Of a stretch of 32,129 nt of DNA, positions 1,444 through 32,089 are shown one piece after another (the stretch's first letter is position 1; each line of letters opens with the position of its first letter). Under the pieces are notes generated by a model. That model saw nothing but the letters and a program-made list of their open reading frames with translations, did not search any database and was not told where the DNA came from. The stretch spans positions 1-32,129 of the forward strand of contig JALOLT010000028.1 of the NCBI GenBank assembly GCA_025455775.1. The letters run 5' to 3'. A program made the position numbers and the translations under genes. This stretch comes from Fimbriimonadaceae bacterium. GTDB lineage: Bacteria > Armatimonadota > Fimbriimonadia > Fimbriimonadales > Fimbriimonadaceae.

Positions 1444-3462
1444 ATGATCTTTAGAAATAGCCAATATGTCCTTGCGAAACGCGCGGGAGTGCTCCTGGCA
1501 ACTCTCATCTGTTCCGTTTCTTCCGCTTCTGCGATCCAGCACGCCCTCGTGATAGGGATCGATACCTACGAAAGCCCTTTGATTAACCCCTTGCGGGCAG
1601 CAGGAGCTGACGCCAGGGGCCTCGCGACTTTCCTCCAAACTTCGGCCAAGGTGCCTGGGGCAAACGTGAGGCTCCTCACGAGCGCTGGTTCGCTTAAGCC
1701 TCGCAAGAAGGTGATCCTGGAGGAGATCGAGAAACTCGCGAAATCCGTCAAGCCAGGCGACACTGTGTTTTTCAGCTTTGCCGGTCATGGCATGCAGCTT
1801 CGCGGGGGTGAGCCTGCCCTCTTGCCGATGGATGCCAATTTGACCAATGACGCAACCGCCAAGGAAACCACTTTATCGGCGGCAGAGATCCGGAGTGCCC
1901 TCTCCAAAATTCCCGCTGAATTGCTCATCGTGATGTATGACATGTGTCGAAATGATCCCATCGCTGGTTCGCGCCAGAGCGGCGGGAATTTCATGGGATC
2001 GAATCTCGCCAGGGCCACCTCGCTCGAAACTGTATCTGGGAACCAACCAGGGCCAAAGAACGTGGTGAACCTTTTCTCTTGCAGTCCCTCACAGCTGAGC
2101 TATGAGTGGACTGGGAAGGGGCGAGGCTTTTTTAGCTATTACGTTGAGCAGGGTCTCGCTGGGAGCGCAGCCAACAGCGAAGGAAAAGTAACAGTCACAA
2201 CCTTGCTCAACTATCTCAACTTGGCCGTACCAGGGGTTGTGCAGCGGGAGGTTGGTCGCGAACAAACCCCCATGTTTGAGCTACGGGGCAAGGACGTTCT
2301 GGGGCAAGTCGTTCTGTCCGGAAGAAAACCTGGCGGCGGGGGCCTCACGGCAGTGGTGATGGCCAATCCTAACCTGAAACCGAAGACTTACGAAGATCTT
2401 TTCCAACTTGGATACGAGGCGGCTCTTTCTGGTCGATCCCTGGCTGCCGAAGATTATTTCCAAGATGCCCTGAAGCTGAAGCCTAACTCTGTACAGGCGA
2501 TGATTGGGATTGCCAAGGCTTTCCACTTGGGAGGAGACACGAGAACTGCCCAGCAATGGTACGCAAAAGCCGTTAAGGCTGACCCGAAGAACCAAGAGGC
2601 CTGGGTGCTGGGTTACTCCATTTCCACGGAGGGTCACATGATTGATCCCTTTAAGTTCGATCGCAACGTGAACGGCCAGTTCGTGGAACGGTGGGACAAG
2701 ATCGTGGCTTTGGATAAGAGAAATCCATACGCCTGGTTTATGTCGGGAATCTTTTCCGTCTTGGCCCTGGATCTTCAATCAAGGGCTCGGGCTTTTCGTG
2801 CCATTAAAGAGCTTGTCCCTGCGGATCATCCTTATGTCCAGATGGTCTATCCAGATCCCTTGCAGCTGGTTGAGAAGGAGGATTGGACGACGCTCGAACT
2901 CCTCCATTCCGACCGTTCGACCGTAGAGATCCACAACGATGCGAAGTTTGTGAACATCGCTGAGAAAAGGGTGGACGAAGAGCCAGACCACTTGGCTCTG
3001 TGGGCTTTTCTCTACACAAATCGAGGGATGTGGCGCGAGCGAAAGCAGGGTAAGCAAGGATCTGGTGTCACATGGAGTCTGAGAGAGTTGCCTGAGCGTG
3101 GTGCTGCCTTTCAGAAGAAAGCAGAACAGGCCTTTGAACGTCTGAACCTCAATCGGGACGCCCGTCGTCCCCTTCGACCCTTGCCAGAGGAGCAGGCCAG
3201 ACTCGAATTAGCCTCGATTCAGGGAATGTACGCCAATATCATGTCTCCCTTCCAAGACTTTAAGAGCGGGGTTCGCTATGGTCTGAGGGTTTTTTGGGAC
3301 CAGGCCGAGAAGAGGTCGTTCGATAACCGCGTAGTTCCTCTTGGGAATGGCAACTTCCTGATCGATGATTCGATGAGTGGGGGACCTTATAGGGTCTACA
3401 CGCGGCTGGCGTCCAACCTATTGGTGAGCGAGGAAGGGGTCGTCATCATCCGGATCCTGTAG
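1444..3462 (+). CDS. Secreted caspase-like (peptidase C14) protein with TPR repeats
   Basis: This 672-residue protein starts with a probable signal peptide (hydrophobic VLLATLICSVSSASA, cleavage near residue 30). The caspase fold begins with HALVIGIDTY at ~33-42. The catalytic dyad is visible: His115 in FSFAGHGMQL and Cys168 in YDMCRND, the DxCRN form typical of bacterial caspase homologues. After the p20/p10-like region (to ~295) comes a TPR-like solenoid from ~315 to ~400 (YEAALSGRSLAAEDYFQDAL, LKPNSVQAMIGIAKAF) with further helical repeats to ~590. The C-terminus (~600-672) is of unknown fold. Such proteins cleave after basic or acidic residues in other bacteria; the substrate here is unknown. 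No Shine-Dalgarno site precedes the ATG. It follows a second caspase-type gene in the same direction, suggesting paralogues. Confidence 0.85.
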   Translation: MIFRNSQYVLAKRAGVLLATLICSVSSASAIQHALVIGIDTYESPLINPLRAAGADARGLATFLQTSAKVPGANVRLLTSAGSLKPRKKVILEEIEKLAKSVKPGDTVFFSFAGHGMQLRGGEPALLPMDANLTNDATAKETTLSAAEIRSALSKIPAELLIVMYDMCRNDPIAGSRQSGGNFMGSNLARATSLETVSGNQPGPKNVVNLFSCSPSQLSYEWTGKGRGFFSYYVEQGLAGSAANSEGKVTVTTLLNYLNLAVPGVVQREVGREQTPMFELRGKDVLGQVVLSGRKPGGGGLTAVVMANPNLKPKTYEDLFQLGYEAALSGRSLAAEDYFQDALKLKPNSVQAMIGIAKAFHLGGDTRTAQQWYAKAVKADPKNQEAWVLGYSISTEGHMIDPFKFDRNVNGQFVERWDKIVALDKRNPYAWFMSGIFSVLALDLQSRARAFRAIKELVPADHPYVQMVYPDPLQLVEKEDWTTLELLHSDRSTVEIHNDAKFVNIAEKRVDEEPDHLALWAFLYTNRGMWRERKQGKQGSGVTWSLRELPERGAAFQKKAEQAFERLNLNRDARRPLRPLPEEQARLELASIQGMYANIMSPFQDFKSGVRYGLRVFWDQAEKRSFDNRVVPLGNGNFLIDDSMSGGPYRVYTRLASNLLVSEEGVVIIRIL

Positions 3463-17360: not shown

Positions 17361-17520
17361 CGTTGACTCCGGGGAAAGCGGGATTTGCTGTAAGTTATTT
17401 TACTTGTTGCTCGAGCGATGCTGACTTTTGGCCCGAAAAGTGAGAAAATGGGTCATGTCTGCCCTGCAGAAGCAGGAAATGATGACCGTGATATTTACCA
17501 GGAACGTCAGGTCTTGACGG

Positions 17521-17601
17521 AAAAATGGCACGACGGAGGCGACTCCGATCACGCAAAGCCACGGGTCTCGTTTAACTTCAAATGAGATCGCCGGGTTACC
17601 C
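17521..17601 (+). promoter_or_regulatory. GEMM / cyclic-di-GMP-I-like riboswitch aptamer upstream of flgM
   Basis: The conserved GEMM core is present: ACGCAAAGCCACGGGTCT (17551-17568) preceded by P2, CGGAG/CTCCG (17534-17547), with a GCGA GNRA tetraloop. It is followed by P3 TCTCGTTT/AAATGAGA (17566-17587) and ATCGCCGGGTTACC (17587-17600). The 5' strand (GGCACGAC) departs from the consensus GGGCAAACC, and a clear P1 partner for GGGTTACC is not seen, so this is a divergent member. The class senses cyclic-di-GMP; some variants prefer cGAMP. The aptamer lies 38 bases before the flgM start on the same strand. Confidence 0.75.
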
Positions 17602-17604
17602 AAA

Positions 17605-17632
17605 GAGGGATCCTTCCTCATCGCACTAGAGG
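17605..17632 (+). promoter_or_regulatory. Candidate expression platform and flgM ribosome binding site
   Basis: The Shine-Dalgarno site AGAGG (17628-17632) lies six bases before the GTG start. CCTC (17616-17619) can pair either with its GAGG (sequestering it) or, as TTCCTC, with upstream GAGGGA (17605-17610), freeing it. Mutually exclusive pairing just after an aptamer is the expected form of a translational switch, but the sequestering stem is only four base pairs. Confidence 0.5.
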
Positions 17633-17638
17633 TTTACC

Positions 17639-17905
17639 GTGAAGATTTCGAATGAACAGATCGCCAGAATTCGCGCCCAGAAAGGCTCCTTGACCCCGGA
17701 TGCTGCCCAGGTGGATACGGCTGTGATTAAGCTGACCGATCAAGCTCTCATCCAGCAAGTAACCGGCGACGTGCTGGAAATGGCAGACCGCGAAGAGGTC
17801 GTTGCCCAGCTGAAGGCGAGAATCGAGGCAGGCACCTATAGCCCCACCGGCGAAGAGATCGCGGATGCCATGATCCGTCGCAACATCGCAGACCGGATTC
17901 GATAG
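17639..17905 (+). CDS. flgM: FlgM-like anti-sigma-28 factor
   Basis: This 88-residue protein starts at GTG with a good AGAGG Shine-Dalgarno site. The C-terminal half, REEVVAQLKARIEAGTYSP then GEEIADAMIRRNIADRI, carries the FlgM family pattern (V..LK..I..G.Y....E.IAd.m). The N-terminal half is polar and probably disordered, as in known FlgM. FlgM holds the flagellar sigma factor inactive until the hook is complete, then is exported. Here it stands apart from other flagellar genes and has a c-di-GMP-type riboswitch in its leader, which would link second-messenger level to sigma-28 activity. A strong terminator follows. Small size makes the family call good but not certain. Confidence 0.85.
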   Translation: MKISNEQIARIRAQKGSLTPDAAQVDTAVIKLTDQALIQQVTGDVLEMADREEVVAQLKARIEAGTYSPTGEEIADAMIRRNIADRIR

Positions 17906-21636: not shown

Positions 21637-22539
21637 CTAGTGCCCTTTCTGGTTCATCTCGTGGCGGAGGTCCGGCAGGTTTGGGGCGACTCCTGGCTGA
21701 GGCGGCGCAGAGGAGGGGAGATTTGGTTTAGGTTTTTGGCTCCCATCTGGCCCTGCTTCTGAACCTGCCGCGTAGGGCAGGAGGATCGAAACTCTCCGAT
21801 TGCTGAAATGCAAGGGATCTGTGATGACCCTGGGCTCCCGGCTCCCCTTGCCCCGAACCTCGAGGATTTGGCTTTCTGGCACCCCGTTTTCCATCAGGAG
21901 GATGCGGACGGCGTTGGCGCGATCTGTGGAGAGGCTGATGTTGTCGTAGCCTCCCCGGTTCATGGGGTTTGCGTCTGTGTGGCCGTTGATTTCCATTTGC
22001 CTCTTGCTGAGGGCCAGGATCGGGGCGAGCTGGGCAAACATCTCTTTCGCTTTTGGGCGAACGATGGCACTGCCGAGCTGGAAGAAGGCTTCTCCGCCGC
22101 TCTCGTTTTCGATGAGCTCGATGGCGAGGCCTTTCGAGTTCATTTTGACTTCGAGATCCCCTTTGGCTTGGAGGTTTTGGAGGGTTTCGTCCTCCGAGAT
22201 TGTCTGGGCGATGCGGCCAGCAAGGTCCTGAACCTCTTTGGCGTCGTTCAGGCGTCCTCGGTCGCCGCTTGTGACTCCGCCAGATCCAGGAAGGGGGCTT
22301 TCTTGGGGGAGGATGTTCACTGGGTTGCGCGGGAGGTTCTTATCGAAACCGAGTGGGTCTCGGAAATAGGAGGCGATGTCTTTCTTTTGCTCTTCCGACA
22401 TTCCGAGGATCCACATCACCATAAAGAAAGCCATCATCGCAGTGACGAAGTCGGCATAGGCTACTTTCCAGGCTCCCCCGTGGTGAGCATGGCCGTGGCT
22501 CTTTTTCTTTTTGATGATGATGGGGGTGCCGTCTTGCAT
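21637..22539 (-). CDS. motB: Flagellar motor stator protein MotB
   Basis: This 300-residue protein has a basic, His-rich cytoplasmic start (KKKKSHGHAHHGGAWK) leading into a single membrane helix with the critical proton-binding Asp30 in YADFVTAMMAFFMVMW. The periplasmic OmpA-like peptidoglycan-binding domain shows FFQLGSAIVRPKAKEMF, INGHTDANP and LSTDRANAVRILL (~150-265). A Pro/Ser-rich tail of about 35 residues follows. MotB anchors the stator and conducts ions with MotA. It starts 13 bases after motA, so they form one operon. The conserved Asp with the Ala/Val/Thr/Met-rich helix suggests proton rather than sodium drive, though this is not certain. Confidence 0.96.
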   Translation of the reverse strand: MQDGTPIIIKKKKSHGHAHHGGAWKVAYADFVTAMMAFFMVMWILGMSEEQKKDIASYFRDPLGFDKNLPRNPVNILPQESPLPGSGGVTSGDRGRLNDAKEVQDLAGRIAQTISEDETLQNLQAKGDLEVKMNSKGLAIELIENESGGEAFFQLGSAIVRPKAKEMFAQLAPILALSKRQMEINGHTDANPMNRGGYDNISLSTDRANAVRILLMENGVPESQILEVRGKGSREPRVITDPLHFSNRRVSILLPYAAGSEAGPDGSQKPKPNLPSSAPPQPGVAPNLPDLRHEMNQKGH

Positions 22540-22552
22540 GAGGTCTCGTTAC

Positions 22553-23410
22553 CTAGGCGGCATCCTTTTCTTTCACGGCTGTTTCGAGTTCCGCAAATCC
22601 TGGGCGAATCGACGGCTCGATTTGGCGTCTGGCAAATTCCACGCAGGTGATCGGGGATTCGCCTCTGGCAAAGCTAAAGAGTGCGTGGCGGATGCAGTTC
22701 ATGTACATGCCATTGGAGCCGACTCTGGTGGCAATGGATTTGGCAAGAGGGGCACAGATGCAGTAGCCGACGAAGATTCCCATGAAGGTTCCGACGAGAG
22801 CGGCTGCGACTGATTGGCCAATAACAGAGGCTCCTGCGTCGATCTTGCCCATGGTGATGATGACTCCGAGAACGGCAGCGACGATCCCGACAGCTGGCAT
22901 TGCGTCTCCGACGGTTGTGAGGGCTTCGCTGGGCCTGAGCTCTTCTGTGTGGGCGACCTCGAGGTCGAGCTCCATCATTTCGCTCAGGTCATGGGGGCCA
23001 ACTGCTCCTGTGAGAATGACCTTCATGGTATCGCAGAAGAAGTGGGTAGCGTGGTGGTCGGAAAGGAACGAGGGAAACTTCTTGATGATCTCGCTCTCTT
23101 CCGGCTTTTCGATGTGGCGTTCGAGACCCAACAGGCCTTCCTTTCTGGCGACGCTAAAGAGTTGGTACATCATGCGGAGTAGCTCGATGTACTGCTGCTT
23201 TGCCCTATCTGGTTTGAGCATTGCAAGGATCGCCTTGATCGTTGCCTGGAATGTCTTGATGCCAAAGGAACCCAAGAAGATGCCAAGGGCAGCCCCGATA
23301 ATAATGATGATTTCGGTCGGCTGAATCAGAACCGCGACGTCTCCGTGGTGGAGGATGTACCCCAGCAAGGTGCAGACAATCGCTACGACGATCCCGATGA
23401 TGGCAAACAT
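22553..23410 (-). CDS. motA: Flagellar motor stator protein MotA
   Basis: This 285-residue inner-membrane protein has four membrane helices: ~1-20, ~32-50, ~150-170 and ~185-210 (estimated). Landmarks are IIIIIGAALGIFLGSFG near the second helix and the conserved prolines in GDAMPAVGIVAAVLGVIITM. The cytoplasmic loop (~70-140) is the part that meets the rotor protein FliG in other bacteria. It is the first gene of motA-motB. The ATG lacks a nearby Shine-Dalgarno site, but a strong AGGAGG lies about 33-38 bases upstream with a small hairpin (GAGGG/CCCTC) between them. With FlgM in the same window, this indicates a flagellated organism. Confidence 0.95.
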   Translation of the reverse strand: MFAIIGIVVAIVCTLLGYILHHGDVAVLIQPTEIIIIIGAALGIFLGSFGIKTFQATIKAILAMLKPDRAKQQYIELLRMMYQLFSVARKEGLLGLERHIEKPEESEIIKKFPSFLSDHHATHFFCDTMKVILTGAVGPHDLSEMMELDLEVAHTEELRPSEALTTVGDAMPAVGIVAAVLGVIITMGKIDAGASVIGQSVAAALVGTFMGIFVGYCICAPLAKSIATRVGSNGMYMNCIRHALFSFARGESPITCVEFARRQIEPSIRPGFAELETAVKEKDAA

Positions 23411-30907: not shown

Positions 30908-32089
30908 CTACGCTTTCTGGGGCATGGAGAGAGCCCAGACGCGTAGAACCTTATCCAGGCCCCCTGCGACCAAGCGATCGCCACTGGGGCTAAACCCGAC
31001 GCAGCTGACCGGCTGGTGGCTCGCCTCGATCCTGCCATGGCCGATGCCATGGACGATATTCCAGAGGCCGACACTGCCATCTCGGCTTGCACTGGCCAGA
31101 AGCCAGGAGCGAGGGTGGAAAGCCAAACACTCGATCGGGCGCTGGTGACCAAAGAAAGTCTTGATCAGCATGCCGTTTCGCAGGTCAAAAACGCGCAAAG
31201 AGAGATCGACAGCTGCTACCGCCAGGGTGTTTTGGTCGGGACTGAATGCCAAGGACGTGACGGTAGACCGCACTTGGTTCAGGGTCATGAGTTCTCTTCC
31301 CGTTGCCCCGCACCAGATCTTGACCGAGGCATCGGCAGACCCAGTCGCAATCCTCGCCGAATCTTGAGTCCAAGCCAGGGCTGTGACAGAACCTGTGTGA
31401 GCGTGGCCAGTAAAACGCACCTGTCCATCGCTCGCTCTGACGACGCGCAAGGTGTTGTCCACCGTTCCTTCGGCAAGGCTTTGACCATCGGGAGCAGGGG
31501 CAACTGTGCAGACCCACTCTTTAGGGTTGTTGCGCCAGACCTTCACCCTTTCGCCTTCGACCGTCCAGCAGGCGAGGGATTGTTCTGTCGTTCCTGCCGC
31601 CAAAGCACCGTTAGGCCCAAAGGCAGCCACAGAGCTCACGACTCCACCCTCTAACTTCACTCGTTTCTCTACAAAACTAAGCTGAGGATCCCACCACAAA
31701 AGCTCATTATCGAAACTAGCTGTGACAAATTTGCCGCTGGCCCGGTGGAAAGACATCGCATAGACAGGGGTGCGGTGCTCCCGATGGCGGTGAATGACCT
31801 GAACCTGGACTGCATCTGGGTGGCGAGAATCGCGGTGGCTCGCTTCTGGCTCACTGTAGTCAGCCTGGCCAATCGAGACGTCGTACTCCATTCGCCTGAC
31901 AGGATCGCTCAAAACCTCGAAGGCCACGTTGATCTGAGCCATCTTTTCGTGAGCCTTAGGATCTGGGTTCACGTCTGGGTGAAAGGTACGGGCCAGGTTC
32001 CGATAGGCCGAGCGAACCGCATCGTTGTCTGCTTTTGGCGGAACGCCTAGAATGTCATAAAGGTTCGGCAAGGCAAAGCTATTATGCAA
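30908..32089 (-). CDS. DnaJ-like J-domain protein fused to seven WD40 repeats
   Basis: An N-terminal J domain (~8-70) contains LYDILGVPPKADNDAVR and the HPD motif (His37-Pro38-Asp39, RTFHPDVNPD) needed to activate Hsp70 ATPase. Residues ~100-390 form seven WD40-type repeats, each with a GH/SH-like start and a W/F-D or similar end, enough for one complete beta propeller (for example VTALAWTQDSARIATGSADA and IECLAFHPRSWLLASASRDG). The fusion suggests a substrate-recruiting Hsp70 cochaperone. The annotated start is TTG; the frame stays open to the window edge, and TTG at residue 7 (LPNLYDILG) is equally possible, so the N-terminus is uncertain. It is convergent with the mannosidase. Confidence 0.88.
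   Translation of the reverse strand: MHNSFALPNLYDILGVPPKADNDAVRSAYRNLARTFHPDVNPDPKAHEKMAQINVAFEVLSDPVRRMEYDVSIGQADYSEPEASHRDSRHPDAVQVQVIHRHREHRTPVYAMSFHRASGKFVTASFDNELLWWDPQLSFVEKRVKLEGGVVSSVAAFGPNGALAAGTTEQSLACWTVEGERVKVWRNNPKEWVCTVAPAPDGQSLAEGTVDNTLRVVRASDGQVRFTGHAHTGSVTALAWTQDSARIATGSADASVKIWCGATGRELMTLNQVRSTVTSLAFSPDQNTLAVAAVDLSLRVFDLRNGMLIKTFFGHQRPIECLAFHPRSWLLASASRDGSVGLWNIVHGIGHGRIEASHQPVSCVGFSPSGDRLVAGGLDKVLRVWALSMPQKA

Follow-up and report, generated by a model that had tools for sequence, protein, structure and literature searches.

A putative class-I c-di-GMP riboswitch precedes flgM in many Armatimonadota and is predicted to turn the anti-sigma-28 factor on

Cyclic di-GMP is known to control flagella through master regulators, motor brakes and riboswitches placed on flagellar operons. 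Late flagellar genes are switched off by the protein FlgM, and WhiG is a sigma factor related to FliA. In Vc2, the Vibrio cholerae riboswitch of Rfam family RF01051, control is translational and works through the stability of the P1 helix (PMC9262584), as we propose for the switch described here. Cd1 of Clostridioides difficile belongs to the same riboswitch class, and flagellar proteins go down when its ligand is bound (PMC9262584). A link between c-di-GMP and an anti-sigma factor has been described at the protein level, where the nucleotide acts on the sigma/anti-sigma complex RsiG-WhiG (PMC8325347).

We analyzed a 32,129-nucleotide stretch of DNA from a Fimbriimonadaceae bacterium (the window), in which a riboswitch of this known class lies in the leader of the anti-sigma-28 gene flgM. 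Like Vc2, it has the aptamer core, a P2 with a GNRA loop, a P3 and a G at position 20. Unlike Vc2, it would regulate an anti-sigma-28 gene, is predicted to be an ON rather than an OFF switch, has a family-specific joining strand and, in most relatives, has a platform that pairs with flgM codons. The predicted outcome for flagella is that of Cd1, but Cd1 acts on transcription, as an OFF switch of the flagellar genes themselves, whereas the route here would be a rise of an anti-sigma factor. The nearest logic is that of RsiG-WhiG, in which c-di-GMP likewise raises anti-sigma activity; there RsiG acts with c-di-GMP bound, whereas the RNA in the window would set the amount of anti-sigma protein. 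The Geobacter 3',3'-cGAMP (GEMM-Ib) riboswitches share the fold but differ at the selectivity position, where they have A and the window keeps G. A literature search that covered the subscription literature in part found no paper on c-di-GMP riboswitch control of flgM, and none on the coding-strand platform described below. If the reading is correct, a riboswitch on an anti-sigma factor would make a short, direct path from a second messenger to sigma-28 activity.

When the entire window was searched with cmscan against all 4227 Rfam families, only two matches scored above gathering, a tRNA and RF01051. The latter, which spans the full model (1-87) at 44.6 bits (gathering score 35) and E 8.9e-6, lies directly upstream of the FlgM open reading frame, and is the one c-di-GMP-I match in the 2.99 Mb genome. 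A first-pass annotation, made by reading the letters, had placed a class-I c-di-GMP riboswitch here and suggested a covariance-model search; the match bears it out, and the core, the P2 with its GNRA loop, the P3 and the terminal GGGUUACC are all present as described. The element reaches farther 5' than had been drawn, with P1 and a conserved upstream element starting near 17501. The parts of the leader and its gene are as follows.

17501 to 17515, + strand: 5' strand of P1 and conserved upstream element (GGAACGUCAGGUCUU), pairing with 17603-17617 in the folded model
17517 to 17603, + strand: c-di-GMP-I riboswitch aptamer (RF01051), located by cmscan
17527, + strand: G equivalent to Vc2 G20, the c-di-GMP/cGAMP selectivity position; in the Rfam model it is the unpaired G that opens GGCA
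17534 to 17547, + strand: P2 hairpin, CGGAG-GCGA-CUCCG; all six of the six counted P2 pairs change on both sides in the family
17552 to 17559, + strand: invariant core CGCAAAGC, from the Rfam match and the family leaders
17557 to 17597, + strand: P3 hairpin, AGCC..GGGUCUCGUUU/AAAUGAGAUC..GGGUU, from the Rfam alignment, its base counted in the family
17603 to 17617, + strand: 3' strand of P1 (AAGA..GAU..UUCC), from the folded model, a window-specific pairing without independent support
17628 to 17632, + strand: Shine-Dalgarno AGAGG, six bases 5' of the start codon, read from the sequence; GAGG is kept in many leaders of type B (below)
17639 to 17905, + strand: flgM, anti-sigma-28 factor, GTG start, 88 aa (PF04316, E 6.3e-11, 42.8 bits against a cut-off of 25)

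The P2 strands CGGAG (17534-17538) and CUCCG (17543-17547) are capped by a GCGA tetraloop. In the folded model the P1 of the window is short and imperfect; P1 is clear in the relatives that we call type A and supported in those of type B. FlgM is encoded by a single copy in the genome, which also carries its sigma-28 partner (FliA_WhiG, TIGR02479, 236.4 bits against a cut-off of 189.6), flagellins and GGDEF proteins (eight GGDEF matches); motA (22553-23410) and motB (21637-22539) lie inside the window. Similar FlgM proteins occur in MAGs named Fimbriimonadaceae, Fimbriimonadia and Chthonomonas.

The position equivalent to Vc2 G20 has been described as contributing to the choice among cyclic dinucleotides (PMC9262584, PMC6274999). 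We mapped this numbering onto the window from the Rfam alignment and found G at 17527, rather than the A of GEMM-Ib; 71 of 74 family members, window included, have G there. As this guanine is kept, c-di-GMP, not cGAMP, is the predicted ligand. The first-pass annotation had noted that the 5' strand (GGCACGAC) deviates from the consensus, and had taken this as a hint of altered ligand preference. The strand does depart from the consensus, but the family most often has ACG where the consensus has AAA after GGC (45 of 74, scored over the A and the two bases that follow it), and this is a family-wide variant of the joining region, not a peculiarity of the window. Altered ligand preference was rejected as the main reading on the strength of the kept G20. 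Sensing of a different cyclic dinucleotide, for instance 3',3'-cGAMP, would fit the off-consensus strand and the A, a change linked to cGAMP recognition, that three flgM riboswitches (L006, L007 and L063, in genomes G042, G041 and G020) carry at the G20-equivalent position. We nevertheless think it quite improbable, given the G that the window shares with most of the family (71 of 74 members) and the GGDEF enzymes of the genome itself, where no cGAMP-synthase-type change was seen: the motif could be matched in two of the eight, both with the ordinary GD residue.

The association of aptamer and gene extends through the family. Among 85 Fimbriimonadaceae genomes, RF01051 matches in 68 and FlgM in 78, and the core is present 57-173 nt 5' of the FlgM match for 74 of the 80 flgM genes. 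The six flgM genes lacking it are a second copy (L092), those of genus g16 (L101-L103) and those of two small genomes (L104, L105); family genomes without flgM gave no aptamer match. In the family alignment, 95.3% of cells in P2 and the P3 base are paired, compared with 18-40% in slid controls. Over 46 distinct family sequences these helices show 56 two-sided changes against 13 in shuffles, none of 500 shuffles reaching 56, with the caveat that the cells are not independent since the sequences are related. The covariation of P2, together with conservation in the family, shows that the aptamer is real and under selection. Two strong canonical c-di-GMP-I matches in the same family (L002:1501-1589 and L003:389-482) stand before long exported-looking open reading frames and not before flgM.

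Constraint on this scale bears on whether the aptamer might be a decaying relic, or might control mRNA stability or premature termination rather than flgM translation. At 44.6 bits it does score below the canonical copies in the phylum (70-90 bits), and U-tracts occur 3' of the aptamer in other families. But the ligand core and P2 are clearly constrained in the family, the window leader has no U-tract after the aptamer, and only 35 bases separate the end of the aptamer from the start codon, which favours a platform of the ribosome-binding-site (RBS) type. We hold a relic or a different function to be highly improbable, and return to translational control of flgM.

How a platform of this type could work can be read from the 49 leaders of type A. 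Their P1, GACAG/CUGUC, is paired in 97% of cells, and its 3' strand continues as CUGUCUGAAAUC, which is complementary to flgM codons 3-6 (GAUUUCAGACA); the helix with these codons puts the Shine-Dalgarno and AUG in its loop. The counts were made in a gapless alignment of the P1 strand, the post-aptamer strand and the first codons, cut out and joined. In the codon helix 86.1% of cells pair over 40 distinct sequences, against 25-47% in slid controls, a value reached by none of 500 shuffles. The P1 and RBS helices of the relatives are mutually exclusive and carry compensatory changes. In 39 of 40 sequences the silent third base of the serine codon has a pairing partner in the leader (UA 32, CG 5, GC 1, GU 1). 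TCA occupies the helix Ser codon in 39 of 49 genes but 13 of 179 other Ser codons of flgM; ATT fills the helix Ile codon in 39 of 49 genes, compared with 96 of 374 in flgM. These base-pair and codon counts ignore relatedness, but the CG, GC and GU variants are spread over several genera. Codons of flgM doubling as a regulatory strand would plainly exemplify how a riboswitch platform can constrain the coding sequence.

Type B comprises 21 leaders, including that of the window, and four (L005-L008) fit neither type. In type B the region from Shine-Dalgarno to start finds its pairing partner in an element immediately 5' of the aptamer, as in L011 (AUAAGCCUU with AAGGAGGCUUAU) and L029 (CAAC..GACUUC with GAGGUC..GUUG). 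Cognate duplexes of this element with the RBS average -14.8 kcal/mol, and swapped ones only -12.1 (0 of 10000 permutations), and the same element also pairs with the post-aptamer strand to form P1 (mean -9.7 against -7.3, 0 of 10000). The homologous upstream element pairs with both partners in the 20 other type-B leaders. Beyond the family, 11 leaders of the same order were read; each has the aptamer, and in 8 of them, by our reading, a copy of the 5' P1 strand (GACAG or GGCAG) sits between the Shine-Dalgarno and AUG and matches the leader's own 3' P1 strand (CUGUC or CUGCC). All of these arrangements appear to obey one logic, in which formation of P1 would release the RBS region; both helices are conserved in relatives and weak in the window itself.

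When the aptamer and P1 were both forced in folding, 47 of the 49 leaders of type A and 20 of the 21 of type B opened between -13 and +16, a result that is consistent with the model and not proof of it, because forcing P1 removes the competing strand by construction and is thus partly circular. On average the Shine-Dalgarno of type A itself becomes no more accessible once P1 is forced (0.60 to 0.51), and the opening is confined to the wider region of start and early codons. When the aptamer core alone was forced, in a run without ten of the leaders, the two states were alike in both types, and hence P1 had to be considered. The helices of the relatives predict an ON switch, in which c-di-GMP would give more FlgM and less sigma-28 activity. 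The first-pass annotation had expected an inverted logic from control of an anti-sigma factor; on the relatives' prediction, ligand would turn FlgM on and thereby silence sigma-28 and motility, the direction that c-di-GMP usually takes. Its proposal of translational action fares better: the switch probably acts on translation, and what relatives conserve is the competition between P1 and an RBS helix.

In the window leader, the duplex of the 5' element with the RBS is no better than chance (z -0.3), and ensemble folding with aptamer and P1 forced gives small or erratic changes in Shine-Dalgarno and start accessibility across transcript ends. The pairings that the first-pass annotation had read as the switch, GAGGGA (17605-17610) with UUCCUC (17614-17619) and CCUC (17616-17619) with GAGG (17629-17632), do exist as strings and are mutually exclusive. 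No counterparts were seen in the listed leaders of relatives, and the probabilities of the two pairings swing with transcript length; we rejected them as the switch. Because of the poor pairing of the 5' element, the inconsistent ensemble folding and the absence of these helices from relatives, the sign and the strand exchange that we propose for the window are read by homology.

The same two helices could instead make the aptamer an OFF switch, such that bound c-di-GMP leaves CCUC (17616-17619) available to cover the Shine-Dalgarno, lowering FlgM and raising sigma-28, the inverted logic of the first-pass annotation. Their mutual exclusion close to the Shine-Dalgarno fits this, forcing the aptamer alone moves CCUC:GAGG from 0.02 to about 0.55 in long transcripts, and Vc2 is itself a translational OFF switch (PMC9262584). 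Once the P1 base is also forced, however, CCUC:GAGG ranges from 0.01 to 0.65 according to transcript ends; the helices were seen in no other leader, and the relatives point to ON. We therefore judge an OFF switch unlikely.

Collectively, we consider it likely that a class-I c-di-GMP riboswitch heads the flgM mRNA and that its ligand stabilises P1 and opens the RBS region, so that FlgM is made. Without ligand, one strand of the P1 region would be free to pair with the Shine-Dalgarno, the start codon or the first codons, and FlgM translation would be low. The masking helix would consist of the 3' P1 strand with flgM codons 3-6, or of the 5' P1 strand with the Shine-Dalgarno and start region. With c-di-GMP bound, the stabilised P1 would withdraw the pairing strand, leaving the ribosome-binding region open and FlgM translated; FlgM would then bind sigma-28 (FliA) and late flagellar genes would be shut off.

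Upstream of the riboswitch, the window contains two promoter-like elements.

17464 to 17471, + strand: -35-like element CTGCAGAA (family form CTAAAGAA) of a putative sigma-28-type promoter, placed by the position of the family motif relative to the aptamer
17485 to 17492, + strand: -10-like element ACCGTGAT (family forms GCCGATAA and ACCGTTAT), assigned to sigma-28 by likeness to the consensus

Most family leaders carry CTAAAGAA-N12/13-(G/A)CCG(A/T)TA(A/T) about 60 nt 5' of the aptamer, a motif that closely resembles the sigma-28 consensus TAAA-N15-GCCGATAA. The window has CTGCAGAA-N13-ACCGTGAT (17464-17492) in the same place as the family motif, with a score reached by 5 of 300 shuffles. A sigma-28-type promoter thus seems to drive flgM, which would make the gene a target of its own sigma factor and let the riboswitch gate this negative feedback by the level of c-di-GMP. 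The motif was absent from the one flagellin upstream region read in this genome, and a genome-wide search for the exact promoter pattern gave one match, about the chance level. This sole exact CTAAAGA-N12-17-CCGATA match (G000:C150:1569-1595, - strand, L144) lies ~70 nt 5' of a membrane open reading frame that adjoins a GGDEF match; by our estimate, about 0.5 matches are expected by chance.

We then compared c-di-GMP-I and FlgM matches position by position, among the matches listed, in 291 Armatimonadota genomes. Outside the family, at least 48 flgM genes in ten other families have a c-di-GMP-I match on the same strand, 166-263 nt 5' of the FlgM match, and flgM genes with an aptamer in other Armatimonadota families come to at least 59. 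Aptamers from beyond the order show the canonical form, GGCAAAC. Families f41-f43 and f45 have flgM and no aptamer among the matches listed, so the link is widespread and not universal; nor is the riboswitch exclusive to flgM, since 98 of the 146 listed aptamers outside the family are not upstream of a listed flgM. The pairing suggests a direct RNA link across Armatimonadota from c-di-GMP to the flagellar sigma factor, and its recurrence over much of a little-studied phylum makes the link testable. On balance we favour a model in which the phylum has an ancestral riboswitch-flgM unit with its own sigma-28 promoter, whose ligand turns FlgM on, whose platform has been rebuilt several times and through which c-di-GMP sets the gain of sigma-28 feedback. 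The rebuilt platforms would be a P1 mimic between Shine-Dalgarno and AUG, pairing into flgM codons, and pairing of the 5' P1 strand with the RBS.

Eight leaders of other families (L119, L120, L121, L124, L125, L140, L141 and L143) have a U-tract, for example GGTTTGCCTTTTTT, 3' of the flgM aptamer, and GGTTTGCC in these U-tract leaders complements the aptamer's own GGCAAAC strand; the two features together suggest a transcriptional platform in those families.

Several other proteins caught our attention. A 436-aa protein (G000:C71:9286-10593, - strand, L048/L052) has sigma-70 regions 2, 3 and 4 and a C-terminal GGDEF domain with a degenerate-looking active-site motif (CRNGTSGFG), and so by its domain content is a fusion of a sigma factor with a c-di-GMP-type domain. 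Of the 85 Fimbriimonadaceae genomes, 73 have a match to the fusion at E<1e-80, and these represent 31 of 32 genera. Within the window, a 393-aa open reading frame (30908-32089, - strand) has a DnaJ domain followed by WD40 repeats, and another (1444-3462, + strand) joins a caspase-like (Peptidase_C14) domain and TPR repeats in a single frame.
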